Source: Chaetoderma sp. LZ-2023a (Eukaryota; Mollusca; Caudofoveata; Chaetodermatida; Chaetodermatidae). Taken from it: a stretch of 64,000 bases of DNA. Below, piece after piece: positions 747 to 62,805 of the stretch. The stretch is taken from positions 141,105,278 to 141,169,277 of the forward strand of contig CM067359.1 in NCBI GenBank assembly GCA_034401795.1, given 5' to 3'. The notes beneath the pieces are model-generated. The model saw nothing but the letters and a program-made list of their open reading frames with translations. It was not told the origin of the DNA and did no database searches. Positions within the stretch are counted from its first letter, which is position 1. Each line of letters starts with the position of its first letter. The position numbers and the translations under genes were made by a program.

Positions 747-951
747 CCCTTTCACCCTTCAAATTTCTGTATCTCAGTTCCAAAACAACTCTGCAGAGAT
801 GCTGTTGGATAATTTGAAACTAATTTGAACGGAACCTGTTGCTGCCATAGTAGGCAGCAACAGCTCCCAGTCAAATTAATTTCAAACAGTCAACATAATA
901 TTCTTTTATTATAAATGGATTTTTCATTTCTGTTCTATAACGGTTAAAGGG
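747..951. mobile_element. TTAA-flanked palindromic MITE with CCCTTT ends, copy 1
   Basis: A 205-bp element bounded by TTAA at 743-746 and 952-955. The ends are CCCTTTCACCC on the left and, read inward, CCCTTTAACCG on the right. The middle (about 801-895) is the same palindromic core found in MITE-1 (GAAACTAATTTGA, GTTGCTGCC, GGCAGCAACAG). TTAA target duplication and CCY ends are characteristic of the piggyBac superfamily; that assignment is inference because no transposase is present. Confidence 0.75.
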
Positions 952-1185
952 TTAAGAGGACGGCTGTGTTTCATGGCCGTGTTCTGATGGTCTGTAAGAT
1001 ATCCATTATAGACAGGTGCGTTACTGTATGCCTGCTACAGGTAGGTGCCAGATTTCCTGATTGAGCTCTTATACCTTGATGTAAACAATGTGAGCTCATT
1101 CGTGTAATATAAACACGTCTAGTGTGTAAGATTGACAATAATATATGGTTAGAAGATTGGTGTTCATGCATATTAACATATCCTC

Positions 1186-1345
1186 ATCCTCCTCCTCTTC
1201 CTCTTCCTCTTCCTCCTCCTCCTCCTCCTCCGCCACTTGTCCTCATCCTCCTCTACCCATCCGTCTTCTTCTTCGGCTTCTCCTTCTCCTCCTCCTCCTC
1301 TTTCTCTTCCTCCTCCTCCTCCTCCTCCTCATCTTCCTTCTCCCC
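1186..1345 (+). repeat. TCC/TCT low-complexity tract
   Basis: Runs of CCT, TCC and TCT, with a smaller copy near 1466-1490. The serine- and leucine-rich frames that run through it are low-complexity artefacts. GTGTAAGATTGACA before and GTGTAAATTTGACA after the main tract suggest a locally duplicated flank. Confidence 0.8.
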
Positions 1346-1799
1346 ATTCACCCACCTTTCCAATCCTCCTTTCATTCCAAACTAATGTGTAAATTTGACA
1401 CCAATATCTGGTTAGAGGACACTCTACTCTTTCTTCCTCATTCTCTCGACCCCTCCCACCCCGGTATCCTCCTCCTCCTCCTCCTGTTCCTCACCCTCAC
1501 TCTTGCTCATTCACATTCCAGTCCAAGATACAACTGAACACTAACGTTAACATCCATTCATTAAATATATACTATTCTCATCTTCAATGTTGATTTGAAC
1601 TGAGAGATTATTTTATATAGATTCCATATCAGTCACGCCCCGTCATTTTCCTCTAATTGCACGCCTATAATAATTATTTGCTTTTGAACATCACGTTAAA
1701 TGTGAACTGTCGCCATGTTGTCTTAATAATTCTCGACCGATATAACAGTGACTGGTGCTGTGTAGCTGCCGATATAACGGATTCTTTATTATATAATAA

Positions 1800-1930
1800 T
1801 CATCTTGAATATATTGAAACTAATTTGACTGGAATCTGGTGCAGCCTATACCAACAGCGTCAAGCCAATATTCTGTTGCAGCCTATGGCAACAGCTTCAA
1901 GTCAAAATAGTTTCAAAATATGCAACAGCG
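1800..1930. repeat. Palindromic core with internal duplication
   Basis: Core palindrome beginning TTGAATATATTGAAACTAAT and ending AGTTTCAAAATATGCAACAG. The centre is partly doubled, with two GCAGCCTAT blocks. No MITE-1 arms are recognisable around it, so this is either a solo core or a decayed element. Confidence 0.6.
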
Positions 1931-2104
1931 TATCTGTCTGGTTGCTTTAACACCGCACTAATCACAATGGCGTAACTAACAGTGGCTTGCACTTTTATGA
2001 ATCGCCGAATATACAAGCCAGAATATCTTTCGTTGCCGGCATAATAACAAGGGGCACAGGGTCTTGTGACGCTCACTGGCCCATTAGCATTTGAACCATT
2101 TGCA

Positions 2105-2860
2105 TCTAAATAGACATAATGGGTAATTCCAAATAAAATCCAAGATGGCCACCAAAAGAATTAATTGACCCATCAAAATTCTCGTTTAATATGTTGAAGC
2201 CTACCGTCAAAGGACAAGTCCACCATTGTGGAAATTGGGGCATTCATTAATGACGATTGCCGTTTGAAATGGTTCTATGAAATTTTCAGAAAACAAAGAT
2301 GGTTGCCAAAGCATTGACCAATAAAAATTACCAAAGCGGTTAATTGGGAGAAAGAAGCATTTTAAACGATTTCCCACCATTTTTTGGAACATCCAAGATG
2401 GCCACCATAAAAAAGAATCAAGCAGTTAAAATTCTGTATACCAATTCTAAGGCGTACCATCCGGGTCCTTCTCGCTGGATTTGGTTTAAATCGTCCAAAC
2501 AGTTAATGAGGTAGGCTTATAACTGTTTTCCCAAAATTTTAGGAAAATACAAGATGGCCTCCGAAAATTGATCAGTCAAAATTCTGTATACACATTCTGA
2601 AACCAACCACCCTAGTATCCTTCTAGCAAAGGTTACTTGAAATCGGTCTGGCAATTAATGAGGAGTAGCATTTTAAACGATTTACCACTATTTTAAAGAA
2701 AATTCAAGATGGTTGCCAAAAAAATTGTCCTGTCAAAATTCTGTATGCAGGTTCTGAAGCATATGACGCTAGGGTTCTTCCAGCCACCTTTGCTTGGGAA
2801 TTGGATCTATGGATATCTCAGAAACTTCTTGTCCGATTTGGCTCGAATTTTAACAAAAGG
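2105..2860. repeat. Degenerate ~155-160-bp array with CAAGATGG motifs
   Basis: The phrase CAAGATGGCCACC or a close variant recurs near 2141, 2392, 2552 and 2707. Each is followed by a TCAAAATTCTGTAT block and an AGCATTTTAAACGATTT block. A single unit reappears near 3779. A related array lies at 22960-24120. Open frames here carry no recognisable domain. These are old, diverged tandem repeats. Confidence 0.6.
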
Positions 2861-2995
2861 GTGCAACAGTACTCCAGGATTCTACAACTTTGAGCGTGAT
2901 CCCATAAAGGTCCGGGAAAACTTCGAAAAATCCGAAAAAATCCGGAAAATCCGAAAAATGTTTTACAATATGACAAAAAACTGGAGGTCGAGAGT
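2795..2995 (+). repeat. Repeat R4, copy 1
   Basis: Contains GGATCTATGGATATCTCAG, a TGGCTCGAATTTTAACA block, AGGATTCTACAACTTTG and a run of TCCGGAAAATCC-like motifs. The same order of blocks is present at 14465-14745. No protein domain is recognised. Confidence 0.55.
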
Positions 2996-3059
2996 TTGGA
3001 ATCTCTGGCTGCTCCTGTATTGATTTTATTCCCGAGAAATTCTTTATTTGACGGAAGCA

Positions 3060-3867: not shown

Positions 3868-3871
3868 TTAA

Positions 3872-9833: not shown

Positions 9834-10246
9834 CAATTGACCTCCGGTTTTAGCTATGCCCCGCCCATCTCCGTCTAAGCTCCACCCACACCTCGCTCGT
9901 TTTGGGACCGATCGATCTCTGAACACCCTGACTATCAATTTCCAAAAAAACACACAGTTAAGCTGTTGAATATTTTGAAACTAATTTGACTGGGTGCTGT
10001 TGCTGCCTAAGACAACAACAGCGCCCAGTCAAATTAGTTTCAAAATATTCAACATCATGTTTATTAAATAGCAAAGAATTACAAAAGACATACAATTCAT
10101 GAAACGTGTCGGACTTTTTTAGATTTGATGACGGGCTATATGGAATCCCTTGTGACGTAATGATTGTGACGCCATCATACCCGCGCTGAGCTGATTATGA
10201 CGTCATACACGGTCAGACAATGGATGGATGCTCTGGAAAGGTGAAT
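9834..10246 (+). mobile_element. MITE-1 complete copy (9.8 kb)
   Basis: Order: eroded terminus TTGACCTCCGG, left arm with AGCTATGCCCCGCCCATCTC, the GATCGATC block, palindromic core 9963-10053, then the right arm. The right arm has TTTATTAAATAG, GTGACGTAATGATTGTGACG and ATTATGACGTCATAC, and ends CTCTGGAAAGGTGAATTA. About 410 bp, no coding potential. The terminal inverted repeat is about 14 bp around GACCTTTCC. Confidence 0.85.
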
Positions 10247-10389
10247 TAGTCTCTCGCAAAAACTTAATCTAGGCTGTATCTAAAGAGCAGATACATTCTG
10301 ATAGTGATTATGTCATCTGGCTATGTCTCTCTCTGGAACAATAACGAACCTAAAACAAGACATCATATTGGGTATCATTTGTAACTTCT

Positions 10390-14826: not shown

Positions 14827-14860
14827 TGAATAACGCCATTCGTCAGTATGGCGTTATTCA
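14827..14860. repeat. 13-bp inverted repeat at the satellite edge
   Basis: TGAATAACGCCAT (14827-14839) and its exact reverse complement (14848-14860) are separated by 8 bp. The pair ends 3 bp before the first satellite monomer. Confidence 0.8.
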
Positions 14861-14863
14861 TGA

Positions 14864-17800
14864 TTAGGTCTCTAGTGAGAACACGGCCTTAGACATGCGA
14901 TATAGTATCTAGTATGTTTAGGTCTCTGGTGAGAACACGGCCTTAGATATGCGATATAGTATCTAGTATGTTTAGGTCTCTAGTGAGAACACGGCCTTAG
15001 ATATCCGATATAGTATCTAGCATGTTTAGGTCTCTAGTGAGAACACGGCCTTAGATATGCGATATAGTGTCTAGTATGTTTAGGTCTCTAGTAAGAACAC
15101 GGCCTTAGATATGCGATATAGTGTCTAGTATGTTTAGGTCTCTAGTGAGAACACGGCCTTAGATATGCGATATAGTGTCTAGTATGTTTAGGTCTCTGGT
15201 GAGAGCACGGCCTTAGATATGCGATATAGTGTCTAGTATGTTTAGGTCTCTAGTGAGAACACGGCCTTAGATATGCGATATAGTATCTAGTATGTTTAGG
15301 TCTCTAGTGAGAACACGGCCTTAGATATGTGATATAGTGTCTAGTATGTTTAGGTCTCTAGTGAGAACACGGCCTTAGATATGCGATATAGTATCTAGTA
15401 TGTTTAGGTCTCTAGTGAGAACACGGCCTTAGATATGCGATATAGTATCTAGTATGTTTACGTCTCTAGTGAGAACATGGCCTTAGATATGCGATATAGT
15501 ATCTAGTATGTTTAGGTATCTAGTGAGAACACGGCCTTAGATATGCAATATAGTATCTAGTATGTTTAGGTCTCTAGTGAGAACACGACCTTAGATATGC
15601 GATATAGTATCTAGTATGTTTAGGTCTCTAGTGAGAACATGGCCTTAGATATGCGATATAGTATCTAGTATGTTTAGGTCTCTAGTGAGAACACGGCCTT
15701 AGATATGCGATATAGTATCTAGTATGTTTAGGTCTCTAGTGAGAACACGGCCTTAGATATGCGATATAGTATCTAGTATGTTTAGGTCTCTAGTGAGAAC
15801 ACGGCCTTAGATATGCGATATAGTATCTAGTATGTTTAGGTCTCTCGTGAGAACACGGCCTTAGATATGCGATATAGTATCTAGTATGTTTAGGTCTCTA
15901 GTGAGAACACGGCCTTAGATATGTGATATAGTATCTAGTATGTTTAGGTCTCTAGTGAGAACACGGCCTTAGATATGCGATATAGTATCTAGTATGTTTA
16001 GGTCTCTCGTGAGAACACGGCCTTAGATATGCGATATAGTATCTAGTATGTTTAGGTCTCTCGTGAGAACACTGCCTTAGATATGCGATATAGTATCTAG
16101 TATGTTTAGGTCTCTAGTGAGAACACGGACTTAGATATGCGATATAGTATCTAGTATGCTTAGGTCTCTAGTGAGAACACGGCCTTAGATATGCGATATA
16201 GTATCTAGTATGTTTAGGTCTCTGGTGAGAACACGGCCTTAGATATGCGATATAGTATCTAGTATGTTTAGGTCTCTAGTGAGAACACGGCCTTAGATAT
16301 GCGATATAGTATCTAGTATGTTTAGGTCTCTAGTGAGAACACGGCCTTAGATATGCGATATAGTATCTAGTATGTTTAGGTCTCTAGTGAGAACAGGGCC
16401 TTAGATATGCGATATAGTATCTAGTATGTTTAGGTCTCTAGTGAGAACATGGCCTTAGATATGCGATATAGTATCTAGTATGTTTAGGTCTCTAGTGAGA
16501 ACACGACCTTAGATATGCGATATAGTATCTAGTATGTGTAGGTCTCTAGTGAGAACACGGCCTTAGATATGCGATATAGTATCTAGTATGTTTAGGTCTC
16601 TAGTGAGAGCACGGCCTTAGATATGCGATATAGTATCTAGTATGTTTAGGTCTCTAGTGAGAACACGGCCTTAGATATGCGATATAGTATCTAGTATGTT
16701 TAGGTCTCTAGTGAGAACAGGGCCTTAGATATGCGATATAGTATCTAGTATGTGTAGTTCTCTAGTGAGAACACGGCCTTAGATATGCGATATAGTATCT
16801 AGTATGTTTAGGTCTCTAGTGAGAACACGGCCTTAGATATGCGATATAGTATCTAGTATGTTTAGGTCTCTAGTGAGAACACGACATTAGATATGCGATA
16901 TAGTATCTAGTATCTTTAGGTCTCTAGTGAGAACACGGCCTTAGATATGCGATATAGTATCTAGTATGTTTAGGTCTCTAGTGAGAACAGGGCCTTAGAT
17001 ATGCGATATAGTATCTAGTATGTGTAGGTCTCTAGTGAGAACACGGCCTTAGATATGCGATATAGTATCTAGTATGTTTAGGTCTCTAGTGAGAACACGG
17101 CCTTAAATATGCGATATAGTATCTAGTATGTTTAGGTCTCTAGTGAGAACACGGCCTTAGATATGCGATATAGTATCTAGTATGTTTAGGTCTCTAGTGA
17201 GAACACGGCCTTAGATATGCGATATAGTATCTAGTATGTTTAGGTCTCTAGTGAGAACAGGGCCTTAGATATGCGATATAGTATCTAGTATGTTTAGGTC
17301 TCTGGTGAGAACACGGCCTTAGATATGCGATATAGTATCTAGTATGTTTAGGTCTCTAGTGAGAACACGGCCTTAGATATGCGATATAGTATCTAGTATG
17401 TTTAGGTCTCTGGTGAGAACACGACCTTAGATATGCGATATAGTATCTAGTATGTTTAGGTCTCTAGTGAGAGCACGGCCTTAGATATGCGATATAGTAT
17501 CTAGTATGTTTAGGTCTCTAGTGAGAACACGACCTTAGATATGCGATATAGTATCTAGTATGTGTAGGTCTCTAGTGAGAACACGGCCTTAGATATGTGA
17601 TATAGTATCTAGTATGTTTAGGTCTCTAGTGAGAACACGACCTTAGATATGCGATATAGTATCTAGTATGTTTAGGTCTCTGGTGAGAACACGACCTTAG
17701 ATATGCGATATAGTATCTAGTATGTTTAGGTCTCTAGTGAGAGCACGGCCTTAGATATGCGATATAGTATCTAGTATGTTTAGGTCTCTAGTGAGAACAC

Positions 17801-18050
17801 GACCTTAGATATGCGATATAGTATCTAGTATGTGTAGGTCTCTAGTGAGAACACGGCCTTAGATATGCGATATAGTATCTAGTATGTTTAGGTCTCTAGT
17901 GAGAACACGGCCTTAGATATGCGATATAGTATCTAGTATGTTTAGGTCTCTAGTGAGAACACAGCCTTAGATATGCGATATAGTATCTAGCATGTTTAGG
18001 TCTCTAGTGAGAACATGGCCTTAGATATGCGATATAGTATCTAGTATGTT
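14864..18050 (+). repeat. 54-bp satellite array, about 59 monomers
   Basis: Head-to-tail units beginning TTAGGTCTCTAGTGAGAACA and ending TATAGTATCTAGTATGT. The period is exactly 54 bp: identical phrases recur every 540 bp along the array. Proximal units carry a TATAGTGTCTAG variant (around 15061-15340). Distal units carry GTGTAGGTCTCT, GAACAGGGCC, GAGAGCACGG and TGGTGAGAACACGACC variants that recur at 270-bp spacing. The unit is a multiple of three, yet all six frames contain stops, so it is not a protein repeat. The array ends abruptly at TTATCCTGAAC. Confidence 0.98.
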
Positions 18051-18134
18051 TTATCCTGAACATTTAGTTGCATTTATCTAAGATAAAGACGGAATTTCAT
18101 AACCAATCTAAAGTGATCAAATAAGTTCTCGTAA

Positions 18135-21055: not shown

Positions 21056-21483
21056 CATTAAGCAAAGTCTGTGTAAATCAGTATGGCACGGGATGATTCA
21101 CGAGATTTGCAGTATTCCAGTTCAATACAATCCTGGTGAGTTCCGTCAATATGGCTCAAGTGGTTCCTTCTTACTATGTGTTCAAAATTAGCTCATGTAA
21201 TAAATATCGGAACAGCATATTTTTAGAGTAATAACGCCTTATTTATGGCTGCTAGAACGGGAATAGTTGGGCGGACATGTTTAGTAGATATTCGGTTCGC
21301 CAACGCCAACGTACAGTAACACCCGGTCAATACCCACCCGCTCTCCTGCAATCTAACGATAGCGGTCACACCCTTACAGAATAACGAGATACAGATGGCG
21401 ATCATGAGTCATTTAAACAGGGTGTAGTTATAGTGTCTTCCGAATGAACGTTAGATCATGCGATGGGGAGCAACACAATAATA

Positions 21484-21851
21484 GACCTTTTCAGTTTTAG
21501 CTATTCCCCGCCCATCACTAGCTAAGCTCCATCCACACTTCGCCGTGTTAGGGTTGATCGATCCCCGAATGCCTTGACTATCAATTCTCTGAAAACTATA
21601 CAGCGAAGTTGTTTAATATTTTGTAACTAATTTAACCAGTTTCAAAATATTCAACAGGATATTTATTAAATAGTAAAAACATACAATTCGTACAACAACG
21701 CATAGTCCATTTTCAACCATGCGTTCGTGACGTACTTATGTACGTCATACACGACGCCATAATGACGTCATTGATTATGATGTCATTCTATACGTCACGT
21801 AGTTTATTATGACGCCATATAATGGATGAATACATTTGAAAGGCTGATTAA
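21484..21851 (+). mobile_element. MITE-1 with a collapsed core (21.5 kb)
   Basis: Left end AATAGACCTTTTCAGTTTTA, left arm with the CCCCGCCCATCACTAGCTAAG block and TTGATCGATCCCCGAATGCC. The core has lost its centre: AACTAATTTAACC is followed directly by AGTTTCAAAATATTCAACAG. The right arm has four CGTCA motifs including AATGACGTCATTG. It ends near GAAAGGCTGATT. Confidence 0.8.
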
Positions 21852-22590
21852 GAACTTTGATGACATTGTTATCGTAAGAATAAAGTGAGGATATGGGGGT
21901 AAGCTGGTACCCGACTCCTCATTCCATCGCTGACGATTCTCTGGCTCAGGATATGAGGGCATGTAACGGGTGCCATATTTGTACAAGAATCCTGTACATG
22001 ACGTCATTACACATATAGGTGAAATCCACACGGCAGCAGACGCTTCAAAGCGAAATGACAGCGATTTAACCCTTTTGCAACGATGCCGCTTCGTGAATTA
22101 ATATGGTGTTATCTCTGACATTTCGGTACGATTACTAACCAAAATTTATTTTTCCACTAAAGATTATGCTGCAAAATTTGAAAGTCGTGCTGTTAATCGA
22201 GATTATTTTCTCCAAGGATAAGAAGTAGGCACATTTCCACATTTTGTAATAATTCAGTCATTTGGTATCACCTGGCTATGGCTTGAATATGCTGATCACT
22301 GAGCCTCTGAGGGTGATACCTGGGGTGGGGTGGGGGGTGGGGGGCGTTGACCCTGGTGTGGAAGCAGCTGAAAAAGCTCCAAGCAGTTGTGTTTCCCATA
22401 AAGCTTTGAACATGTGATGCATTGATTGCTTTCTGTATCCTATATTCATGATTTGAGCCAATTATTATGTTCAATATTTTGAAACTAAAATTACTGGAAC
22501 CGGGGAAGCGAAACATTTTACAATAATATTATTTGTGTCAACACATCCGGCAATTTGCTTGTATAATATGGTCACATTTCTGCCCAATAC
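21852..22590. other. Unassigned region with a G-rich run
   Basis: Contains GGGGTGGGGTGGGGGGTGGG near 22322 and a solo half core TTCAATATTTTGAAAC near 22470. Frames here encode no recognisable domain. Confidence 0.4.
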
Positions 22591-24394: not shown

Positions 24395-24398
24395 TTAA

Positions 24399-24573
24399 CC
24401 CTTTCACCGATGAATTTACCATATTTCGTTTTCAACAGTTGAATATTTTAAAATTAATTTGACTGGAATCCATTACAATGGCGTCCAGTCAAATTAATTT
24501 CAAAATATTCAACAAATCTACTTTTATATAATGCATAGAATATACTTTGTTAGGGATCTGTCGGGTGAAAGGG
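24399..24573. mobile_element. TTAA palindromic MITE with CCCTTT ends, copy 2
   Basis: TTAA (24395-24398) then CCCTTTCACCG on the left; on the right CGGGTGAAAGGG then TTGA, a mutated TTAA. The central core (24436-24516) has both arms of the ATTTTGAAATTAATTTGACTGG type with a short centre. 175 bp. Confidence 0.8.
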
Positions 24574-24579
24574 TTGATC

Positions 24580-26179: not shown

Positions 26180-26578
26180 CAATGGTCCTTTCCAGCGTAC
26201 CCACCCATCATATGACGTCATAATGAACTGCGTGATGTGTACAATGACATCATAATGAATGACGTCATGAATGATGTCGATAAGTACGTCACGAACGCAT
26301 ATTTGAAGCGGTCTATGGGCTGTTGTACAAATTGTTTGCTTTTACTATTTAATAAATATTCTGTTGAATATTTTGAAACTAATTTGACTGGGCGCTGTTT
26401 CTGCCTATGGCAGCAACAGCACACAGTCTAATTAGTTACAAAATATTCAACAGCTTCCCTGTATAGTTTTCAGGAAATTGATAGCTAGGGCATTCGGGGA
26501 TCGATCAATACAAACACGGTGTGGGTGGAGCTTAGCTAGTGATGGGCGGGGCATAGCTAAAAATGGAAAGGTCCATTG
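26180..26578 (-). mobile_element. MITE-1 complete copy with good ends (26.2 kb)
   Basis: Ends CAATGGTCCTTTCCA and TGGAAAGGTCCATTG are near-perfect inverted repeats. GAG stands just outside both (26177-26179, 26579-26581), but a 3-bp repeat is not seen at other copies, so it may be chance. The right arm has ATATGACGTCATAATG and AATGACGTCATGAATG. The core is at about 26360-26455. Confidence 0.88.
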
Positions 26579-27639: not shown

Positions 27640-28106
27640 ATTGTAGAAGGCAATGTTTGTGGAGAAGATTACATACCTCCAAACATCGGTGATCGTACCA
27701 ACTTCGATGAGGAAATACACCATGTCTGCATCACAGTATTATTTCATAGAAGAGCAGTGGTCAATAGTGAATATCATACCCATTCCTAAATCTCTTTATC
27801 TGAGTGGCACAAACAACTATAGAGGTGTCAGTATGAGCTTCATTGTGGCCAAAACATTCAATACGCCCATCCTCAACAGAATAAAGAAAGCAGTTGAATC
27901 ACACCTCATAATTAATCAAAGCTGGAGGAGCAACAGTTTTCCAGGTCATCACATTGTGCAGAGTCATGGAAGGAGCAAAAACAAAGCTACCACCAGCAGT
28001 ATGCAGTATTAGCCTTCTGTGACTTCAAGAGAGCCTTTGGCTCCACCCACAGAGGAAAGATGATCAGAAACCTATGGACATATGATATCCCACCCAACCT
28101 ACTTAT
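27640..28106 (+). pseudogene. LINE-C, reverse transcriptase fragment
   Basis: About 120 in-frame residues plus a downstream piece of a non-LTR RT. WSIVNIIPIPKS and TNNYRGVSMSFIVAKTFNTP correspond to the first RT blocks, and ILNRIKKAVESHLIINQ precedes the usual NGFRPGRST block, here decayed. After a frame change FKRAFGSTHRGKMIRNLWTY (about 28023-28080) corresponds to motif A, with Phe-Gly-Ser replacing Phe-Asp-Ser. Similarity stops where MITE-1 begins at 28105. No palm motif C is retained. Confidence 0.75.
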
Positions 28107-28443
28107 TGACCTTTCCCGTTTTAATTATGCCCGGTCCATCTTTAGCTAAGCTCCACACAAACTTCGATCGATCCCTGACCTGCCTGACTATTAATTTCCA
28201 GGAAGCTATACGGGTAAGCTGTGCAATATTTTGAAACTAATTGGACCGGGTGCTGTTGCTGCCATAGTCAGCAACAGCGCCCAGTCAAATTAGTTCCAAA
28301 ATATTCAATAGCTTACCTGTATAGTTTTCTAGAAATTGATAGTCAGAGAGTTGAGAGATCGATCGATCCCAACACGAGCGAGGTGTGGATGGAGCTTAGC
28401 TAGTGGTGGGTGGGGCTTAGCAAAAACTGGAAAGATCCATTCT
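28105..28443. mobile_element. MITE-1 variant with two inverted left arms
   Basis: Unlike other copies, both sides of the core (28222-28316) are left arms: a GCCCGGTCCATCTTTAGCTA block on the left and a GGAGCTTAGCTAGTGGTGGG block on the right. The ends are TTGACCTTTCCCG and GGAAAGATCCATT. The entire 339 bp can fold into one hairpin. The CRE-bearing right arm is absent. Confidence 0.8.
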
Positions 28444-28884
28444 CGCATATGTCAATGTGTGAAAAGGAATGTTGCATAAATGGCTACAATCATTATTGCA
28501 TCTATTTGCTATACGCGCCTATGGCTTTAAGTTAAGGAATATAAACTGCGAATCTTGGCGCTTGATGAAACATTTAAACAAACACACCTGCGTAAGGTAT
28601 TCGAAGTTCAAAGTAAAAACCGCCCACATCTTTCTTATTCATTTCCTCTTCGGCTGGCAAATGTTTATTTCAAAGATATATACAGATTTTGCAGCCACAT
28701 CTACCGCTGACCACCAATGCATGGTGAATCTGGAAACAATTTGGCAGCACTAGTTGCTCGTGGTCTGGTGTTTATGGTCAAAGTGTATTAAATAGGTCAT
28801 CATGGGCTCGTATTTACGGTACAACTCAGAAATAAATTCACGCGTTCCCAAAAGAAAATATAACATACTGTTGAATATTTTAAA
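28444..28884. other. Unassigned stretch between MITEs
   Basis: A 94-codon frame at 28469-28753 has no recognisable domain and no supporting context. A half core TGTTGAATATTTTAAACATA lies at 28870. Confidence 0.4.
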
Positions 28885-29976: not shown

Positions 29977-30150
29977 GGCAGCCTAAGACAGCAATGTCTT
30001 CCAATCCGAGTATGTTCAAAATAGTCAACAGAACATATCTTAATAACTAACATGTTTCTATTTCTTGTTTTGAAAACAAGGAAACTTATATATTAGCTGT
30101 ATTGTAAAGTCACGGTGACCAGTAGTCAATACAGACAAATATCGTATTAA

Positions 30151-30347
30151 CCCTTTAACACTTGCATACCACAAACGCCAGGTCCTTTATGCTGTAGGCT
30201 ATATTCTGTTGAAAATGTTGCAGCTAATTTGACTAGAAGCAGTTGGTACCTAGCAGCGAATGGTTCCAATCAAAGTAGTTTTCAAACTATTCACCAAATT
30301 TTCTGTCTACCTGTCTTAAAATTGAGACGTGACTCGAGTTTCAAGGG
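30151..30347. mobile_element. TTAA palindromic MITE with CCCTTT ends, copy 3
   Basis: TTAA (30147-30150) then CCCTTTAACAC; on the right TCAAGGG then TTGA. The core (30207-30295) is eroded: AGCTAATTTGACTAG pairs with CAATCAAAGTAG. 197 bp, close to the 205 bp of the best copies. Confidence 0.65.
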
Positions 30348-30359
30348 TTGATGGGATAA

Positions 30360-36488: not shown

Positions 36489-36893
36489 ACAATGGACCTT
36501 TCCATTTTTAGCTATGCCCCGCCCATCACTAGCTAAGCTCCACCCACATCTCACCGTGTTGGGATTGATCGATCCCCGAGTGCCATAGCTATCAATTTCC
36601 TGAAAACTATAGTGGGAAGCTGTTGAATATGTTGTACCTAATTTGACTGGGTGCTGTTGCTGCCTATGGCAGCAACAGCGCCAAGTCAAATTAGTTTCAA
36701 AATATTCAACAGAATATTTATTAAATAGTAAAAGCAAACAAGTTGTACAACAACGCATAGACCGTCTTCAAATATGCGTTCGTGACGTACTTATCGATGT
36801 CATTCATGACGTCATTCATTATGATGTTATTCTACACACCACGCAGTTCATTATGACGTCATAATGATGGGTGGGTACCCTGGAAAGGTGAAT
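36489..36893 (+). mobile_element. MITE-1 complete copy (36.5 kb)
   Basis: Left end CAATGGACCTTTCCATTTTT; right end TACCCTGGAAAGGTGAATTC. Core 36620-36712. The right arm contains CGTTCGTGACGTACTTATCG, CATTCATGACGTCATTC and ATTATGACGTCATAATG. Very similar to the copy at 42041. Confidence 0.9.
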
Positions 36894-37361
36894 TCAGGTG
36901 CATATCAGCCAGTAGTAAGATAAGTTTATGCACTGTAATATGTTCGTCATCATTCGCTTCTAGAGTGCTTAACGCTTGCAAGGCGGTCTCTTCTCTCCAG
37001 CACCCGTTGGTCTTCTTAAATTGCTTCATTTCTTCACACCGACAAACACGATTATGACGGCATCCTACACGTCGCGTAGTTGACTACGACGTCATGTGAT
37101 CGATGGATAAATTGGAAAGCTCTATTGACACTCAATCTCTAAGGGTAGACAACATCATCTGCATTAAGTTGTCTGCAAAACTTATTCGAGAGTGTCCGGA
37201 TTTGGACCATGTATCATCATGAATATCATGGGTACTTTTCGCTCCATTCGGAACCCTATTTTTCGAACAAGTAGAACTGCATGACCCTTTCTTCGCCAAT
37301 TGTACTTATCTCCCAGATCCACTGAACAAACAATGTTCTTGTTCATTTGATTGTAGATTAG

Positions 37362-42040: not shown

Positions 42041-42443
42041 AATGGACCTTTCCATTTTTAGCTATGCCCCGCCCATCACTAGCTAAGCTCCACCCACACC
42101 TCGCCGTGTTGGGATTGATCGATCCCCAAATGCCCTAACTATCAATTTCGTGAAAACTAAACAGGGAAGCTGTTGAATAATTTGAAACCAATTTGACTGG
42201 GCGCTGTTGCTGCCTATGGCATCAACAGCGCCCAGTCAAATTAGTTTCAAAATATTCAACAGACTATTTATTAAATAGTAAAAGCAAACAATTTGTACAA
42301 ATACGCATAGACCGTCTTCAAATATGCGTTCGTGACGTACTTATCGACGTCATTCATGACGTCATTCATTCTGATGTCATTGTACCCATCACACAGTTCA
42401 TTATGACGTCATATGATGGGTGGGTACTCTGGAAAGGTGAATT
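42041..42443 (+). mobile_element. MITE-1 reference-quality copy (42 kb)
   Basis: Left end TTAATGGACCTTTCCATTTT; left arm with ATGCCCCGCCCATCACTAGC and TTGATCGATCCCC. The core (42168-42261) has near-perfect arms ending GGGCGCTGTTGCTGCC and CAACAGCGCCCAGTC. The right arm holds GTGACGTAC, CGACGTCATTCATGACGTCA and ATTATGACGTCATATG. Right end CTCTGGAAAGGTGAATTG. About 403 bp, non-coding, no transposase. Classed as a MITE by size, inverted ends and copy number. Confidence 0.92.
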
Positions 42444-42624: not shown

Positions 42625-42987
42625 TTTAACAGGATTCCTTAGTCATCCTGAAGAAATAACATAAGAAAATATTTGAAAATGTCATTGGCGATCATCTTCT
42701 TCTGAGCCGCAATTTTTACTTTGATATTTGTAGCCGCCATTATTTGGGATTCTATTGTTTTCGCTGTGGCGCAGTCCAGTATAAAACCATTCCCGTAAGA
42801 CTAATGTTAGTCATTGTACTGATGGCCTCCGAGGTGCGCGAATCTACACGCATGCAGTAAGCGTTTAGTAGTTCGATTCTAATTGTGTATTTCCTATTGT
42901 GAAGGTGAAACGTGCTAAGCTAGATATTTTTCTAGCAATTTGACTGATAATTGTTGCTGCCAATAACAGTAACAACTTTCTTTCAAA
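42625..42987 (-). repeat. Arm repeat R2, reversed copy left of LINE-E
   Basis: Reverse complement of the arm at 258-548: contains GATATTTGTAGCCGCCATTA and GTTCGATTCTAATTGTGTAT. A diverged core at 42915-42985 is broken off at TTTCTTTCAAAT, where the LINE-E tail begins. Confidence 0.7.
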
Positions 42988-44268: not shown

Positions 44269-45205
44269 GGTAGATGGTCCTGAGGATCCTTTCATTGGCA
44301 CCTCACTTTGTTCCTGCCAGCTTCCTCATGATGTTTAGCTTTCTTCTGGCCTTTGCCTCTGCGTTCTGGATGTGCTCCTTCTATGTTAATCTTCTGTCAT
44401 AGGTGACTCCCAGGTATGTCTGCTGGTCCTCGTACTCGAGTGGAGTACCGCCCAGTGTCAGATTGCCAACCTTGGTTTTGGTGGACAGTGAGAATAGCAT
44501 GGCTGATGATTTTTCTTTGTTGATGGTAATACATCAGTGAATGGCCCAAGCTGTAAGTCTGTCCAAGGTGAGCTGCATTCTGTACGTGGCAGTCGTTGTG
44601 TACTCCTCGGTGCACCAGAGCACGAGGTCATCTGCATAGAGGGCTGCTTGGATCCCATTGGGCAGCTCCGCTACATTGTCATTAATGAAGAGTATGAACA
44701 GAGTTGGTGATAATACTCCGCCTTGTGGCACCCCTTGTCTCAGCAATACATTCTGTCCAGATTGTCCATCCACCAGCACCCTAGCTCTGCGATTGTGTAT
44801 GTATGACTTGATCCATCGGAACATGTTGCCACCGATGCCTGTGCGCCGGAGCTTCACGAGGAGGTCATCCTTCCACACCTTGTCAAATGCCTTCTGCAGA
44901 TCGATAAAGGCAGCTAGCATCACCTTCTTAGCTTGAAAAGTGTCCTCTATGACCTGTGAAAGATGTGTTGTTTGATCTTCTGTGCTCCTGTATCTTCTGA
45001 AGCCGGCCTGCTCTGAAACTATAATGTTCTCCGACTCCAGGTACCACTGCAACCGCTGGTTGACGATGCGCTCCATGGTCTTGCATATGCAGCTTGTAAG
45101 ACTGATAGGATGGTAGCTCAGCACTTTCGTCTTGTTCTTCTCTTTTTCAGAATAGGAGTCATTCTCTCTTCCTTCCAGCACTGAGGAACCTCTCCATTGG
45201 TCCAA
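44269..45205 (-). pseudogene. LINE-E, reverse transcriptase (broken)
   Basis: The intact part (44534-45205, 223 residues) contains YHPISLTSCICKTMERIV, EQAGFRRYRSTEDQ, motif A AAFIDLQKAFDKVW (Asp102), motif B RQGVPQGGVLSPTLFILFIN (from 156) and motif C YADDLVLW (190-197). The catalytic aspartates are therefore present. After WAIH a stop (44534-44536) interrupts a thumb region still legible as TYLGVTYDRRLT and AEAKARRKLNIMRKLAG. Further in-frame stops lie at 44381-44383, 44303-44305 and 44255-44257. A frameshift near 45140-45160 separates it from the upstream frame. It is not functional as read. Confidence 0.9.
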
Positions 45206-46107
45206 CTGAGATTAAAGATGTCTAGCAACTTGCGGAGAGATGCATTACCAAGGTGTTGGATCATTTCATTCGTAATGTCATCTGGTCCGGGAGATTTCTT
45301 CTTCTTCAATTGGCGGATAGCCTTCTTCAGTTCTGCTAAACTAATGTCAACTTTCATTGCATCATGAGTGTTGGTGTCTGTTTTTTCCTTTTGCTCGTTT
45401 CTAACCTCTTTTTGACGCATTCGTGGTATAGAAATGTTGCTTTCTTTTGCATATGCCTTCGCAAAGGCATCTGCAGCCATCTTTCCTGTCAGTGTTTGTC
45501 CATCTTCTTCAAGAGTAATCTTCTTTCCCCCGACACCCTCATCATTCAGTGCTTTAGTCAGTCTCCATAGCTTTGTGGTGTCTCTCTCTAAATTAATCCC
45601 TGTCGTCTTTTCCCTCCAGCTTCTTCTTTTGGCCTCCAGCTTGGTCTTTAGATACCTGGCTTTAGTTTGTTGTAGCGTGAAGTGGTTTTCATGACAGGGA
45701 TTACCCTCTGCATCATCTCTGGCCTTGTCTAGTTTATCATGTGCTGCTTGCAGTTCTGTTGTCCAGTAAGGGCGGTAGCTTTTGTTGAACCCTCGAGGAA
45801 TCGCTTCGTTGGCAGCCTTGAGGATATTTGAATTAAATTCCTTGACCACATTGTTGATGTTTCTCCCTTCTACTGCTATATTTTGTGTAAGCTCATTGGA
45901 ACGAATGCCGAAAAGACTCCAGTTTGCCTTTTTGTAGTTCCACCTTGGACGTTGAGGTGAACTTGTCGAAATACTTCCAGAAAGAGAGAGGAGGACTGGG
46001 CGGTTGTCGCTTCCTCCTAACTGCGATCCGACTACTCTACTGAGGTTTCTGTGAATGTCTTCTGTACAAAATGCCAAGTCCGGCGTTGTTGTCGAGTGCC
46101 ACCGCAC
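45118..46107 (-). pseudogene. LINE-E, endonuclease end, linker and RT start
   Basis: A 329-residue frame. It opens with the end of the endonuclease (RWHSTTTPDLAFC, then SDNRPVLLSLSG), continues through a basic linker with PYWTTELQAAHDKLDKARDD and a KLWRLTKALNDE block, and ends with the first RT blocks SPGPDDITNEMIQHLGNAS and EVPQCWKEERMTPILKK. A single-base change near 46107 separates it from the main endonuclease frame. Confidence 0.88.
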
Positions 46108-46950
46108 GAGTAAAAGGTAGGCTGATCTGTGGGATCGTTGGCAAGTAAAAGGTGCTTTTCATCTTGCCATGCTTCAATGTCTTCTCCTCGTTTATCAAGT
46201 GGTCTCTACCCCCAGCTCTGGGACTGGCTATTAAAGTCTCTGGCAATGAGGAAGTGGCAGTCCGGGACCTGGATTATGTCAAGTGAGAGATAATTGTCAT
46301 TAGGGCAGTAATAATTGACAATGTCAATCACAGAGCTGCTGGTTGTTACCTTGATCTTGATATATTCTGCCTCTTCCATAAAGGTTTTGATCTGGCTGGC
46401 GTTCACGCTGTTTCGGACCAAGGTGATCACCCCGCCTTTCTTTCTTCCTCTTCGATCACACCGGAAAATCTGGTAACCTCTGATCATAAATGGTTTTCCT
46501 TTTTGCAGGTGTGTCTCTTGGATGCAGCAGATATCAATGTTGTTTTCGTACAGGAACTGTTCGAGCTCTGATTTCTTGTTGGTAACCCCTTCTGCGTCCC
46601 AGTGCATGATGTTGATACTGGGGTTCTCTTTGGGTTTGGTCTTCTCTTTCGGTTGGCCAGTAGCTCTCCATCCTCGTCCCCTGGCTCCACAAGACGAGTT
46701 GATGGGGCCTCCAGTAGCTGAGGGTGGGCTCCTTCGAGGCGTGGAGCCCGGCGCTGCACCTGCCTGGCGGATCCTCACAGGGCGAGTACCATTTCGGTCG
46801 ATTCGATCTCCATGTGTCATTTCATTAGCGTTGTGCATAATGCTCTGGCTAGCCCCTCCAAATGTCTGGATTGACACCCAGTGGGTTACACCCCTGCGCC
46901 ACGTTGAGGCCGAGCATATAGTCTTAAACAGGGGTAAAATATTTGCAAAA
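46108..46950 (-). pseudogene. LINE-E, AP-type endonuclease
   Basis: Frame 46206-46877 (223 residues). After a low-complexity, basic, proline-rich N-terminus (about 1-88) comes INIMHWDAEGVTNKKSELEQ, then the metal-binding motif IQETHL (119-124), KKGGVITLVRNSV and the second catalytic block ARDFNSQSQSW, where the usual Gly of GDFN is Arg. An in-frame TAG near 46208 interrupts a region still readable as DKRGEDIEAWQD. The endonuclease would nick the target to prime reverse transcription. No ORF1-like gag is found upstream; similarity fades at about 46950, so the element is 5'-truncated or its ORF1 is lost. Confidence 0.85.
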
Positions 46951-47620
46951 TATTCTCGAGAAAATGCAAGTTCTACTATCTAATGTTTTGAAAACGATTT
47001 AATAGAAAATCGTTGCTGCAACAACTTCCAACCAGATTGCCTTCAAAATAAGCAGTAGGACTATCAATGTAATAACACATTGTGACGATATTTGGAGCAA
47101 TTCGATTAACAGTCATCGCTGACTAATTCAGCAACAGCATTATCAAATTATTCACATAAAAATCAGTGCCAGCTTTTCAATGTGGTGAGCAAACATACGT
47201 ACGTACAATTCGGTTGACCTGTGTCGTCGTATACGTTGTCACGATCAGGCATGAAATATGTTCAAAACTGTTCAGTCAGTAGGTAAGCATGGCACTGCAT
47301 GGCAGCTCGTACAGGTGCTTTGCTGACCTACTCATCTATGCAAACATATTTCACGGCGGATCTCTATTACGTGTATGACACAGGCCTAGCTAATTGTACA
47401 AACGTGTATTAGCTAACGATATTGGCAGCTCGACAGTAATTATTCTGAGACGAATTTCACAACCTTGTTGATGCAACGACTGTCATTCGAATTGGTAGAA
47501 ATATCTTCAGAATGTCTTACGACATTGAAAATCCTGCCAATTATTTTGATAACAATTTGGTTGAAAGTTGTAGCAGCAACGATTTTCAGTCAACTCGTTT
47601 TCAAAGCGTTAGCTAGCATT
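46951..47620. other. Diverged palindromic cores, otherwise unassigned
   Basis: GTTTTGAAAACGATTTAATA with AAATCGTTGCTGC and CAACAACTTCC (46983-47050), and ATTATTTTGATAACAATTTG with CAGCAACGATTTTCAGTCAA (47540-47610), are old core variants. No protein domain. Confidence 0.45.
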
Positions 47621-47624
47621 TTCT

Positions 47625-47985
47625 GCTGATTATTTCGCAACTAATTTGAAGGAAACTTGTTGCTGCTATCGCCAGAAACAATTATCAGTCAACTTGTTAT
47701 AAAAATATCTAGGCTAACACTTCTCACATCTATCATAGAAAATACACAATTATAATCGAACTACTATAGCCTACGCTTACTACACGCTAGCATTAGATTA
47801 GCGTTACGGGAATTGTTTTATCCCGAGCAGTGAGCATAATCGAGAACAATAGAATCCCAAATAATGGCGCCTGCAAATATCAAAGTAAAATGACGGCTCA
47901 GAAGAAAACGATCGTCGCTGATTTTTTCTAATTATTTTCTAATCTAAATGCTTCAGGATAGATTTAAGCAGCCCTTTTATCGACG
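47625..47985 (+). repeat. Arm repeat R2, forward copy right of LINE-E
   Basis: A diverged core (47630-47715) is followed by the R2 arm: ACACAATTATAATCGAACTA, ATAATGGCGCCTGCAAATAT and AAATGACGGCTC, ending near TTCAGGATAGATTTAAGCAG. It is inverted relative to 42625-42987, with the cores facing inward. Confidence 0.7.
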
Positions 47986-55796: not shown

Positions 55797-56161
55797 TGGA
55801 AGAATCCAGTTTTAGCTTTTCCTAGCCCATCACAAGCTAACTTCCACCCACGCGCGGCCGGTGTTGGGATCAATCGATCGCTGAGTGCTATACTGGTAAG
55901 CTGCTGAATATTTTGAAACTAATTTGACTGCTTGATGTTGCTGCCTATGAGCGGCCAGTCAAGTTAGTTTCAAAATATTCAGCAGCATGTTTATTAAATT
56001 GCAAAGACACACAATTCTTACAACAACGCTTAGTCCGTCATCAATTAAGCGTTCGTGACGAATTTAGCTACGTCGTTCATTACGTAATTGACCATGACGT
56101 CAGTCTACACGTGTTACGTCACGTAGTTGATCATGAGATCATATGATTGATTGATAAAATA
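55797..56161 (+). mobile_element. MITE-1 copy, right part duplicated downstream
   Basis: Left arm with GTTTTAGCTTTTCCTAGCCC, core 55902-55985 with a short centre, right arm with TTTATTAAATTGCAAAGACA, CATGACGTCAGTC and GTTACGTCACGTAG. From 55951 onward its sequence is repeated 309 bp later. Confidence 0.8.
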
Positions 56162-56568
56162 AAATCATCGATTTGAATAGGGTCGATTGCACTATATAAA
56201 CGATAAAATCATCGATTCTGAGAGTGACCAGATTAATACGAAAAGTGTGGATTATATGAGCGGCCAGTCAAGTTAGTTTCAAAATATTCAGCAGCATGTT
56301 TATTAAATTGCAAAGACACACAATTCTTACAACAACGCTTAGTCCGTCATCAATTAAGCGTTCGTGACGAATTTAGCTACGTCGTTCATTACGTAATTGA
56401 CCATGACGTCAGTCTACACGTGTTACGTCACGTAGTTGATCATGAGATCATATGATTGATTGATAAAATAAAATCATCGATTTGAATAGGGTCGATTGCA
56501 CTATATAAACGATAAAATCATCGATTCTGAGAGTGACCAGATTAATACGAAAAGTGTGGATTATATAT
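55951..56568 (+). repeat. 309-bp direct tandem duplication
   Basis: Bases 55951-56259 and 56260-56568 are identical as far as I can read, starting GCGGCCAGTCAAGTTAG and ending in GTGTGGATTATAT. The unit includes the second half of the MITE core, the right arm and about 100 bp of flanking DNA. Confidence 0.93.
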
Positions 56569-56662
56569 ATATATATAATCCACACTTTTCGTATTAATCT
56601 GGTCACTCTCAGAATCGATGATTTTATCGTTTATATAGTGCAATCGACCCTATTCAAATCGA
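56477..56662. repeat. Perfect 186-bp palindrome, no spacer
   Basis: Each 93-bp arm is exactly complementary, centred between 56569 and 56570 in an alternating TA run. It reads from TCGATTTGAATAGGGTCG on the left to CGACCCTATTCAAATCGA on the right. The left arm lies in the second copy of the 309-bp duplication. Confidence 0.95.
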
Positions 56663-58189: not shown

Positions 58190-58285
58190 GCGTATTAATA
58201 TGTTGAAACTAAGTTGACAAGAAACTGTTGCTGCCGTATGTAGCAACATCTTTTAGTCAAGTTAGTTTCAAAATATTCAACAGAA
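58190..58285. repeat. Solo palindromic core
   Basis: ATATGTTGAAACTAAGTTGA and CTGTTGCTGCC pair with GTAGCAACA and a TCAAGTTAGTTTCAAAATAT half. No MITE-1 arms and no CCCTTT ends are visible. Confidence 0.6.
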
Positions 58286-58475: not shown

Positions 58476-58530
58476 ACGGTTCGGGGGAGTGGTGTGGGGG
58501 TGGGGAGAGGCACCGCTATATTAAGATTAA

Positions 58531-58734
58531 CCATTTCATCCATAAATTCCATGTATCTCAATCTCAAGGCAAACAAACGGGCAAATACTTGAAATAGTTT
58601 GAAATTAATATGACTGGAAGCCGTTGCTGCCTTAGGCAGCAACAGCTTCCAGGCATATTAATTTCAAAATATTCAACAGAATATGCTAAGAATCCTAAAG
58701 AATTTACATTTTCAGGAATTTGTCGTTGAAAGGG
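58531..58734. mobile_element. TTAA palindromic MITE with CCCTTT ends, copy 4
   Basis: TTAA at 58527-58530 and 58735-58738. Ends CCATTTCATCC and, read inward, CCCTTTCAACG. Core 58590-58680 with GTTGCTGCCTTAGGCAGCAA at its centre. 204 bp, against 205 bp for the copy at 747. Confidence 0.8.
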
Positions 58735-58929
58735 TTAATGAGACAGGCTGTCTGTCGGTCAGACAGTGGAAATATTTGGCCCGATAATCATGATTATGGG
58801 TAATTGGCTTAATAATGCTGCATGGCAGCACACTTGATGATAGAATTATATAAGCTAATCATCAAGCCATGTGGGTCTAACTAACCATAATATCCACTAC
58901 TAATGACTACACACACATACATAGAGGAT

Positions 58930-59597: not shown

Positions 59598-59659
59598 GAG
59601 TTTCAGATTCTATTTATCATATAAACCGATATTTTGACGAATTTTTCAATAAAGTCGAT

Positions 59660-60360: not shown

Positions 60361-60364
60361 GTAA

Positions 60365-60700: not shown

Positions 60701-60779
60701 CCCGCCGGCAGAGTGTTAATCCTCCGTGACGTAGTAACCCCAGACAGATTTGATACTGAAATCTCTGACTTTGTAATTA

Positions 60780-61440
60780 AGAGCAAATGTTTACCCAGAA
60801 ATACATAAATTTTGACAGCTAATATATATGGGCTCAAAATGTTATATTTCCCAATGGAAATATGAATATTTTGGTAAATATAGGCTAGTGTTTAAAATTT
60901 AATTTGGAAATCTGAAAACTCTGGTCAGAAACATGGACATTTTGGATCCTTAATGCAGAACTCTTGACAGGAAACAAGAAAATTTGGACCTATAGTGCAA
61001 GAATACATGTATGTGTGAAAATGCAAAAATGTGTTTCTGAAATCTGTGAATTTGGGATTATGAGAATTTGGGATTATTACCCAGAAATATATAACCTTTG
61101 ATAGTTAGTATGCATATATCTAGGTTCAAAATGGTAAAAAGAATTTCAAATGAGTAGCAATGTGAAAATTTTAGCTGGAAATGTTAAGAAACATACAACA
61201 CTTTTGACAGGAAACAAGAAAATCTGGACTAAAAAGCAACTGCTTTGTTCAGTAACAAAAAATATGGATGCAAAATGCAAAAGTATGAGAATTTAGACTG
61301 GAAATTCAAATATTTCAATATGAAGAATTGATATCTAAGTTCCAAATATGAATATTTTAACAGAAAACATGAACATTTTAGGTAAAGAATGAAAGAATTT
61401 AGGCCCAAAAATGGAAAAGTTTGGTTATGAAATGATGACC
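60780..61440. repeat. AT-rich short-period degenerate repeats
   Basis: Phrases like ACAGGAAACAAGAAAATTTG (60967) and ACAGGAAACAAGAAAATCTG (61207), plus GGTAAAGAATGAAAGAATTT, recur. Similar to 24960-25450. No coding signal. Confidence 0.45.
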
Positions 61441-61536
61441 ACTAACCAATAATGTCAAATTCCTATTCAACAGGTTCAAAACCTATATGATTGACATGTT
61501 CACTGCGAAAATTCATCAACTAACAGAGCCCTTTAA

Positions 61537-61715
61537 TGGTCAAACCGGCAAAAACCACCCTCTGCAGTGGTATTGAGAATATTTTCAAGAATTTATCACT
61601 AGAATGCCTGGCTCGAGAACCGAGCCACGCATTCCAGGGATAAATTTTCAATTCTTGGCCTGCAAATGGACATTCAATAAGTGAAAATGACAATTTTCTT
61701 AACCAATCTTTAGCA
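61537..61715. mobile_element. TTAA palindromic element, family 2, copy at 61.5 kb
   Basis: TTAA at 61533-61536 and 61716-61719. Centre AATTTATCACTAGAATGCCT, GGCTCGAGAACCGAGCC and inverted CATTCCAGGGATAAATT. 179 bp. Confidence 0.75.
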
Positions 61716-61944
61716 TTAAAGGGTTAATTAAACAAATTCAACTGGCTCGCATCCGGGATGCGCACTGTACTGAAAATCCAGGCTGAAATGCACACGTCTA
61801 TTGTCAACATGATTGTGTTGTGGGAAAAACAGCCAGTCAAATGAGATGATAAGTGATAAATATACATGTATGATGTCTGTGGGGTATGATGTATTTTTCA
61901 TATAGCTGGTTTATTGGCTGAAGTATAAACAATATTACATTCTT

Positions 61945-62178
61945 AACCCTTAAATGTTTAGGATTTTTCAAGAAAATTTAAATCTGCTTATTGAAGTCCA
62001 TTTGCAAGGCAAAATTCTGAGGCTACTTTTGGGAATTTACCACTGTAATCACCGATTTCGGTTATCGACCCAGCCATCTCAGGGGTAAATTTCAAAAAAA
62101 TATTCTTATTTTGGCCGACAAATTTACATTGACACGCCTGTAGAAGCTGGTTTTGGCTGGCTTGGCCATTAAAAGGTT
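61945..62178. mobile_element. Family 2 palindromic element, decayed
   Basis: Left edge TTAACCCTTAAATGTTTAGG; centre TTTACCACTGTAATCACCGA, GGTTATCGACC and CATCTCAGGGGTAAAT; right edge GGCCATTAAAAGGTTAATG. A further partial relative follows at about 62300-62480. Confidence 0.6.
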
Positions 62179-62694
62179 AATGAACAGAAACCCAACTTTA
62201 TTTATATATCATATTATATATCACATACAGAGCCATCTTTAATTAAGATTCAGATCAACTACCACATATATCAGACTTAACAGTCAACATACGCAACCTT
62301 TAACCCTTTTAAGCTTTAATGGTCAAGATTTGTCAAGAAAATTTTGATGTGTGTTTAGTGAATGTCCATTTATAGGCCAAGAACAATGACACGTTCCAGT
62401 TAAACTAGCCTAAAAAACATTCACTGTGTAAGAAACTTGACATAAAGTTGACACTTTGTGATTTCAAGGGCTAAAGGATTAATGTTAGTCCACTGCATAC
62501 TTAGTTACATGGGTGTTGGAGAACACAACATTTATATGGAGTTGCTCTAGCATAGAAGCCCATACTGGCTATCTTGAAGCTAGCTTAATATCGTTGACAC
62601 TTTGTGGTTTCAAGAGCGGCCATCTTAAAAATTGGTTTCCGGATGATAACTCCGTTCGTTTTGAAACTTCAATCTCATTCCCCCAGGGTGTACG

Positions 62695-62805
62695 GAACAT
62701 TTTGTTGAATGTTTTAAGACAGTATAAAGTGGTGCTGATGGTCGGATGCTGCCCATGACAACAACAGCATCCAGTCAAACTAGTTCCAAAACATTGAAAC
62801 ATGTC
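62695..62805. repeat. Palindromic core, decayed
   Basis: TTTTGTTGAATGTTTTAAGA on the left; CAACAGCATCCAGTCAAACT and AGTTCCAAAACATTGAAACA on the right. It lies 60 bp before the Tc1-like element. Confidence 0.55.

Follow-up and report, generated by a model that had tools for sequence, protein, structure and literature searches.

A central palindrome common to two kinds of miniature transposable element in the mollusc Chaetoderma

The window analysed here is a 64-kb stretch (positions 141105278-141169277 of contig CM067359.1, assembly GCA_034401795.1) of the 2.44-Gb genome of the caudofoveate mollusc Chaetoderma sp. LZ-2023a. It holds many copies of a near-perfect palindrome of about 94 bp, here called the core, which is common to short elements flanked by TTAA and to the larger elements of a miniature inverted-repeat transposable element (MITE) family, MITE-1. 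The core and one flank beside it are shared between the two end types, and in the sampled sequence core and shell are inherited together.

The core and its shells

At up to three mismatches the window contains 51 matches to the outer arm of the palindrome, GAATATTTTGAAACTAATTT (0.05 expected), and 24 to the inner arm, GACTGGGCGCTGTTGCTGCC (0.00 expected), which largely bears out the observation of an earlier note on this DNA that one palindrome occupies both MITE-1 and TTAA elements. With a profile built on the entire palindrome, 34 cores are detected in the window; Markov-shuffled sequence and the reversed window yield none. The same profile finds 74 cores, 44 of them at least 80 nt long, in 200 kb made up of 20 N-free stretches of 10 kb (L001-L020) at hand-chosen round positions on 14 long contigs. 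Core density gives a genome-wide estimate of about 0.9 million (bootstrap 0.57-1.27 million), and the genome has 24,800 exact copies of the inner arm and none of its reversed control. The full sample, about 349 kb, also includes 28 loci of 3 kb from L021-L050, which were picked by exact core match in the first 2.6 Mb of one chromosome; two of the 30 (L042 and L045) were left out as overlaps. The pairs L034/L035 and L037/L038 overlap, which double-counts 5 cores among 180 and affects the arm clustering, arm-mismatch, shared-flank and diagnostic-letter counts.

MITE-1 consists of arm B (about 180 nt), the core and arm A (about 128 nt), a unit of about 400 bp with inverted ends that read AATGGACCTTTCCAG, the B end often being AATTCACCTTTCCAG instead. 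The P1 shell is about 160-235 bp long, is flanked by TTAA and has the ends CCCTTTCACC. Both are short, high-copy and bounded by terminal inverted repeats, as MITEs are, and have thousands of exact sites. The TTAA elements with CCCTTT ends that the earlier note had described at four places (now at 743, 24395, 30147 and 58527) are real, and P2 and P3 are further TTAA families with diverged cores. The main elements in the window are as follows.

743..955, plus strand: TTAA element of P1 type with core 801-895, ends TTAACCCTTTCACC...GGTTAAAGGGTTAA, TTAA on both sides and an arm-A-like inner flank
24395..24577, plus strand: TTAA element of P1 type with core 24436-24514, ends TTAACCCTTTCACC...GGTGAAAGGGTTGA
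30147..30351, plus strand: TTAA-type element with diverged core 30206-30297 (49 bits), TTAACCCTTTAACA on the left and CAAGGGTTGA on the right
58527..58738, plus strand: TTAA element of P1 type with core 58593-58679, ends TTAACCATTTCATC...GAAAGGGTTAA
7766..7859: MITE-1 core (profile match)
9962..10056: MITE-1 core (profile match) with a located B end at 10247
21471..21878: MITE-1 with shortened core 21610-21656 (flanked by arms A and B)
26181..26577: MITE-1, B end left, A end right, core 26361-26455 (located ends, clustered arms)
28091..28449: rare A-core-A element, core 28218-28313, arm A on either side; the genome has 11 exact sites of the kind
36491..36894: MITE-1, A end left, B end right, core 36619-36714 (located ends, clustered arms)
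42041..42443: MITE-1, A end left, B end right, core 42169-42263 (located ends, clustered arms, hairpin z = -15)
55900..55987: MITE-1 core whose centre is one end of the exact tandem duplication 55946-56566

The two end types behave differently at their targets, as the earlier note had it: TTAA stands on both sides of the one, and the AATGGACC ends of the other show no duplication. The P1 end TTAACCCTTTCACC has nine window matches at up to two mismatches against 0.43 expected. TTAA is present at both ends in four of the eight P1-like elements that bear a core, and at one end three differ from it by one base and one by two; P1 shows the TTAA target duplication, and no empty site was found for these eight elements. 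A P1 end followed by the start of a core occurs at 2,428 exact sites genome-wide (1,990 and 438 for two patterns), and the spacing is mostly constant among the 100 places listed for each pattern. For MITE-1, 726 combinations of length and offset in 32 copies yielded no target duplication, the best being 7/32 against 2.4 expected (2 bases, at an odd offset). The flank joins of 44 MITE-1 copies gave four matches across the junction, two of them informative, and both fit an insertion without duplication in which the left AA and the right TT belong to the site. In these two the uninterrupted relative reads AATT in one case and GATC in the other. The base that follows ATT at the MITE-1 ends is T in 1,722 of 20,083 exact ends genome-wide and A, C or G in 18,361.

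The A end of MITE-1 begins two bases past the end of a TTAA element (GTTAA AC AATGG or AAATGG) at two places, L016:250-1100 and L044:2319-2620, and a target preference is possible. A second very common central palindrome, K, is different and longer, about 135 nt (AATGTCCATTTGCAGACCAAGAGAAGAC...GACTGGCTCG), and lies in TTAACCCTTTAAT elements of another TTAA group (L011:8062-8308, L021:212-449, window 19577-19711 and others). Of the long palindromes in 264 kb, 70 in all, cores make up 38 and K makes up 22, the latter assigned by eye. A comparison of their arm sequences, in which 7 of 3000 shuffles were as good, is no more than suggestive of kinship between the core and K.

Shared flank and probable common descent

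MITE-1 and many TTAA elements have about 42 nt in common beside the core, on the arm-A side only. The consensus of the first 42 nt or so of arm A aligns to the P1 flank without a gap, and none of 2000 shuffles is as good. The arm-A inner flank scores above the 99% null on one side in 12 of 46 non-MITE-1 copies (0.9 expected), and a search with the flank profile at 7 bits finds 8 of 109 flanks against 1 of 109 reversed. The shared unit of the earlier note is indeed shared, but it is wider than the palindrome. Since sharing is demonstrable for the arm-A flank and not for arm B, the common block comprises the core and one inner flank, and the outer parts differ. The palindrome may then be the inherited centre of one old MITE lineage whose ends changed about once, with a cis-acting role in its multiplication that its constraint (below) would imply; we give this reading a probability of roughly 0.6.

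Core variants follow the shells. A tree of 75 cores, with identical copies removed, needs 2 changes between MITE-1 and TTAA labels where shuffled labels need 13, and one TTAA clade remains acceptable under the approximately unbiased (AU) test (p 0.76). The 14 TTAA-labelled rows in this tree were hand-picked, some with just one clear TTAA end, and just 3 of its 72 inner branches have strong support. The distance matrices of 47 copies, again without identical ones, agree between core and arms (rho 0.32 and 0.25) about as arm A agrees with arm B (0.27). The comparison of core and flank trees that the earlier note had proposed as its own refutation thus came out in agreement, as far as the few columns allow. 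A MITE-1 arm accompanies 49 of the 108 cores in the window and L001-L020. A core lies on the inner side of 88 of 105 hits to the outer part of arm A and 84 of 105 for arm B, and the arms lacking one, away from locus edges, number 13 and 18, respectively; a shortened core is present in at least one of them (21471-21878).

An alternative is that cores are exchanged by recombination at the palindrome, repeatedly making new shell combinations. Elements with two like arms do exist, one of them at 28091-28449, yet free exchange predicts that they should be as frequent as the asymmetric form, and genome-wide there are 5,088 exact A-core-B sites against 11 A-core-A and 46 B-core-B (57 of 5,145, about 1%). 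The agreement of core and arm trees is also unfavourable. Deletions bear on exchange in both directions: 11 of the 34 deletion ends inside cores fall within 5 nt of the centre, where about 4 are expected, but the core as a whole is not enriched, with 34 of 138 ends (24.6%) in 23.5% of the length. Exchange is further favoured by an exact tandem duplication (55946-56566) that runs from the centre of one core to that of another palindrome. We regard repeated exchange as highly improbable. Frequent exchange between families is rejected on the label changes, the agreement of distances and the rarity of symmetric elements, so the exchange proposed in the earlier note can have happened at most rarely. 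The palindrome as a general deletion hotspot is likewise not borne out, the excess being confined to the surroundings of the centre.

The duplication itself contains a 312-bp identical run at a spacing of 309, with a TAT overlap at the junction, and its ends lie within about 3 nt of the centres of core 55900-55987 and palindrome 56477-56662.

Several results weigh against descent of a single lineage with its core. Among the 59 non-MITE-1 cores of the window and L001-L020, GGGTTAA-like ends stand on both sides of 10 and on one side of 18, and 31 have none within 25-115 nt (at a control distance, one core has both). The inner flank of arm B is not demonstrably common to MITE-1 and P1 (2 of 46 copies, 0.9 expected; 524 of 2000 shuffles as good as the consensus match of P1_B to MITE-1_B), so that sharing on the arm-B side stops close to the core edge, as expected of a captured module. 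A diagnostic letter, C on 70 of 75 MITE-1 arms and T on 13 of 14 P1 arms, takes its MITE-1 form at 438 of the 2,428 P1-end sites, and alone cannot separate the shells. The free core tree places one MITE-1 copy outside the others. At L024:2375, finally, the joined flanks of a core match core-less K elements over 42 nt, which makes it a candidate core-less site.

Some of these points suit another explanation, in which the core is itself a minimal palindromic MITE, a fusion of two terminal repeats, which entered several shells by insertion and then multiplied inside them. The core boundary CTGTTGAA/TTCAACAG stays similar across families with different neighbours, and the outer 27 nt are the most constrained part of the core (shared variants, treated below, at 1 of 53 sites), as expected of terminal repeats. 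The unshared arm-B flank and the site L024:2375, at the edge of a K palindrome, fit as well. In a search of 126 core-flank joins against the whole sample, 51 match somewhere across the junction and 24 match a place without a called core. Of these 24, 22 are one MITE-1 copy with a shortened core (21538-21642), one is a core remnant in L044 and one is L024:2375, so that apart from this single candidate the search found shortened cores or remnants and no core-less shell. The gapless arm-A flank common to the shells and the core variants that follow them are also difficult for a minimal MITE, which is decidedly unlikely. The core as an independently mobile unit, one of the suggestions in the earlier note, is not supported, given the single candidate among 126 joins, the match of core variants to shells and the presence of a core beside most arms. 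At L024:2375-2453, a P2-like core lies directly beside a K palindrome.

Constraint on the palindrome

Constraint was measured in the window and L001-L020 on 47 MITE-1 copies picked by outer arm A rather than by the core, 36 of which were usable. Mutations private to one copy are as common in the core (77 of 3,178) as in the arms (230 of 10,321; p 0.54). Variants shared at the subfamily level are depleted in the core, at 7 of 94 sites against 95 of 310 arm sites (p=1.4e-6), and also when CG, TG and CA sites are removed (3 of 54 against 56 of 199, p=2e-4). Two other thresholds give p 2e-5 and 7e-4, and in a second alignment 10 of 94 core sites compare with 129 of 306 arm sites (p=3e-9). Equal private mutations with fewer shared variants suggest that inserted copies decay unprotected, and that the lineage founding the subfamilies keeps its core.

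The arms of the palindrome change together between families. Majority sequences were computed for five families, MITE-1 (27 copies), P1 (9), P2 (5), P3 (4) and the loosely defined Y (5), those of P2, P3 and Y resting on few copies. Two or more different Watson-Crick pairs occur at 18 of 46 paired positions, against a shuffled mean of 5.1, and none of 1000 shuffles is as high. An earlier run with hand-typed consensus sequences gave 17 of 45; in that set the opening letters of P2 departed from the column majority and a single letter of MITE-1 had been a matter of choice, and the computed sequences were then used. Arms from different families mismatch at 17-45% of positions. Within single MITE-1 copies there is no correction of one arm by the other (mismatch 15.4% within and 15.0% between copies), and no compensatory change is seen among MITE-1 copies (6 double changes, 4.9 expected). 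Co-change between families without correction in MITE-1 copies suggests that the palindrome is constrained in source elements only.

Not every comparison is favourable to this constraint. Against outer arm A alone it is weaker (p=0.027, or 0.046 without CG, TG and CA sites), and a 25% threshold leaves it at p=0.07. The second alignment shows an excess of private mutations in the core, 2.9% as opposed to 1.8% (p=8e-4). Arms of the same copy also match slightly better than arms of different copies in P1 (12 against 15%), P2 (21 against 28%) and Y (25 against 29%), though worse in P3.

It is conceivable that the palindrome has no function, being re-perfected by fold-back copying as families arise, and that its low variation is a by-product of few founders. 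The joint change of the arms between families, with few half-steps, would be expected from such copying. The core, however, has fewer shared variants than the arms of the very same MITE-1 copies, so founder effects on whole elements do not explain its depletion, and this account appears unlikely. Conservation as an RNA hairpin, either a small-RNA precursor or a transcript structure, draws on the two-sided changes between families and on a strong predicted fold (a single strand of a typical core at -45 kcal/mol and z = -15, both with DNA parameters). G-U half-steps are scarce, however, with 3 one-sided against 22 two-sided cells, which may point to DNA rather than RNA pairing; nor is there compensation among MITE-1 copies or any match in the window to an Rfam family at gathering score. 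An RNA role is very unlikely. The functional module that the earlier note had listed as a third option is supported in the form of constraint on the source lineage.

Other cores, related systems and a possible history

Other core-bearing parts of the window are as follows.

1803..1930: core with an internal 37-bp duplication (profile match)
42923..42987: diverged core on the inner side of an R2 arm (E 8e-6)
46936..47647: old inverted repeat with cores at 46981 and 47534 (745-column self-complementary match, 68%)
47623..47709: diverged core on the inner side of an R2 arm (E 1e-10)
58190..58284: core with a weak arm-A-like inner flank at 58189-58158 (4.7 bits, E 2.3 for the window)
62703..62798: diverged core (profile match)

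Two of these had been described as solo cores. The one near 1800 is a core but carries the internal duplication, and that at 58190 has its weak arm-A-like stretch at the exact place expected and is probably a damaged MITE-1. A damaged MITE-1 copy at 18630 and this probable one at 58190 are joined to the same foreign sequence, which starts near GTGCATATTCACAG and is perhaps the end of another element. The diverged cores reported at the R2 arms are confirmed by their E values, and the R2 parts turn out to belong to a nested inverted repeat with several old cores in it (46936-47647; 42645-42988 against 47644-47959), interrupted by a non-long-terminal-repeat (non-LTR) retrotransposon. Reading frames of the latter, named by eye, lie on the minus strand at 43015-46979, inside the old multi-core repeat. 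The window also contains a satellite with a 54-bp unit (59 copies, 96% alike, 14860-18051) and a Tc1/mariner-like transposase frame, named by eye (63169-63996), of which a near-identical copy lies in L052.

Genome-wide there are 119 matches to PF13843 (piggyBac transposase) and at least 150 to PF13359 (DDE_Tnp_4). No autonomous partner was tied to either end type, which also counts against descent with changed ends, and neither of two DDE_Tnp_4 loci whose flanks were searched has clear MITE-1 ends. One locus, L051, encodes a DDE_Tnp_4 transposase frame of 541 aa with a THAP-like start (by eye), and two more diverged cores lie within 4.2 kb.

The ends of piggyBac elements begin with CCC, and Kolobok and Sola3 are other superfamilies that use TTAA. 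P1 resembles piggyBac-like TTAA MITEs in its TTAA ends and in a short terminal repeat starting CCCTTT; a large internal palindrome is not a defining part of that class, and Kolobok or Sola3 would also be possible for P1. In palindromic MITEs of the MADE1 type and in fold-back elements the terminal repeats themselves make a near-perfect, hairpin-forming palindrome. The core is likewise capable of a hairpin, but is internal, with separate ends outside it.

The closest analogue appears to be the conserved central domains of short interspersed elements (SINEs), here found in DNA elements. According to PMC6887750, such domains (CORE, V and others) sit in elements with different heads and tails, and the V domain also lies within MER6, a MITE of a DNA transposon; the likeness is one conserved central piece with differing ends. 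The Chaetoderma core differs in being a 94-bp palindrome whose end-resolved hosts are DNA elements, and in being better explained by descent with changed ends than by capture on repeated occasions. Spy transposons of the PHIS superfamily insert without target duplication and prefer AAATTT, as described in PMC11304231. MITE-1 resembles them, on that description, in inserting without duplication into an A/T-symmetric site, but it is flanked by AA and TT with T as the next base in just 1,722 of 20,083 exact ends; since this does not match the AAATTT preference, MITE-1 is not filed as Spy (PMC11304231). No Spy transposase with MITE-1 ends was found. Searches of the open-licence PMC literature on the core sequence and on MITEs that are palindromic, contain an internal palindrome or are chimeric returned no published description of this element, and the exact core has no match in viral contigs, a set from which records close to this genome may be missing.

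If the palindrome is the centre of one lineage, its history may have run as follows. Several diverged branches, P1, P2 and P3, carry the TTAA-type, piggyBac-like ends. One branch would have lost these, probably once, keeping the core and the 42 nt or so beside it. It would have acquired AATGGACCTTTCCAG ends, whose insertion leaves no target duplication and apparently falls between AA and TT, and become the dominant MITE-1. The new element would have arisen by replacement of the outer parts of a source copy around a retained core and inner arm A. Joins of this sort can be provoked by palindromes, and the window offers one in the duplication 55946-56566. Each inserted copy would then decay neutrally, and in the source copies that found subfamilies the palindrome would change slowly, changes hitting both arms together. 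As a cis-acting part the palindrome would be required for multiplication regardless of the transposase that cuts the ends; it would most likely act as a DNA hairpin or as a paired site for protein binding, and its constraint may also suggest an aid to replication. The TTAA elements were most likely moved by a piggyBac-like enzyme and MITE-1 by one that inserts without duplication. We infer the direction and number of the end changes, the cis-acting role and the hairpin mechanism from the sequence patterns described above.

A bolder version of this history, which is possible but doubtful, makes the palindrome a portable cis-acting amplification cassette, a DNA hairpin maintained by selection in source copies, which makes short elements multiply more, no matter which transposase (TTAA type or no-duplication type) acts on their ends. 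Such a cassette would let a MITE lineage outlive its transposase by changing ends. How MITEs rise to hundreds of thousands of copies is an open question, and the palindrome, common to two end types, constrained only in subfamily founders and present at perhaps a million places, is a testable candidate for a part other than the ends that governs multiplication. The Chaetoderma elements may thus be an example of a MITE lineage that swapped its ends and retained its core.

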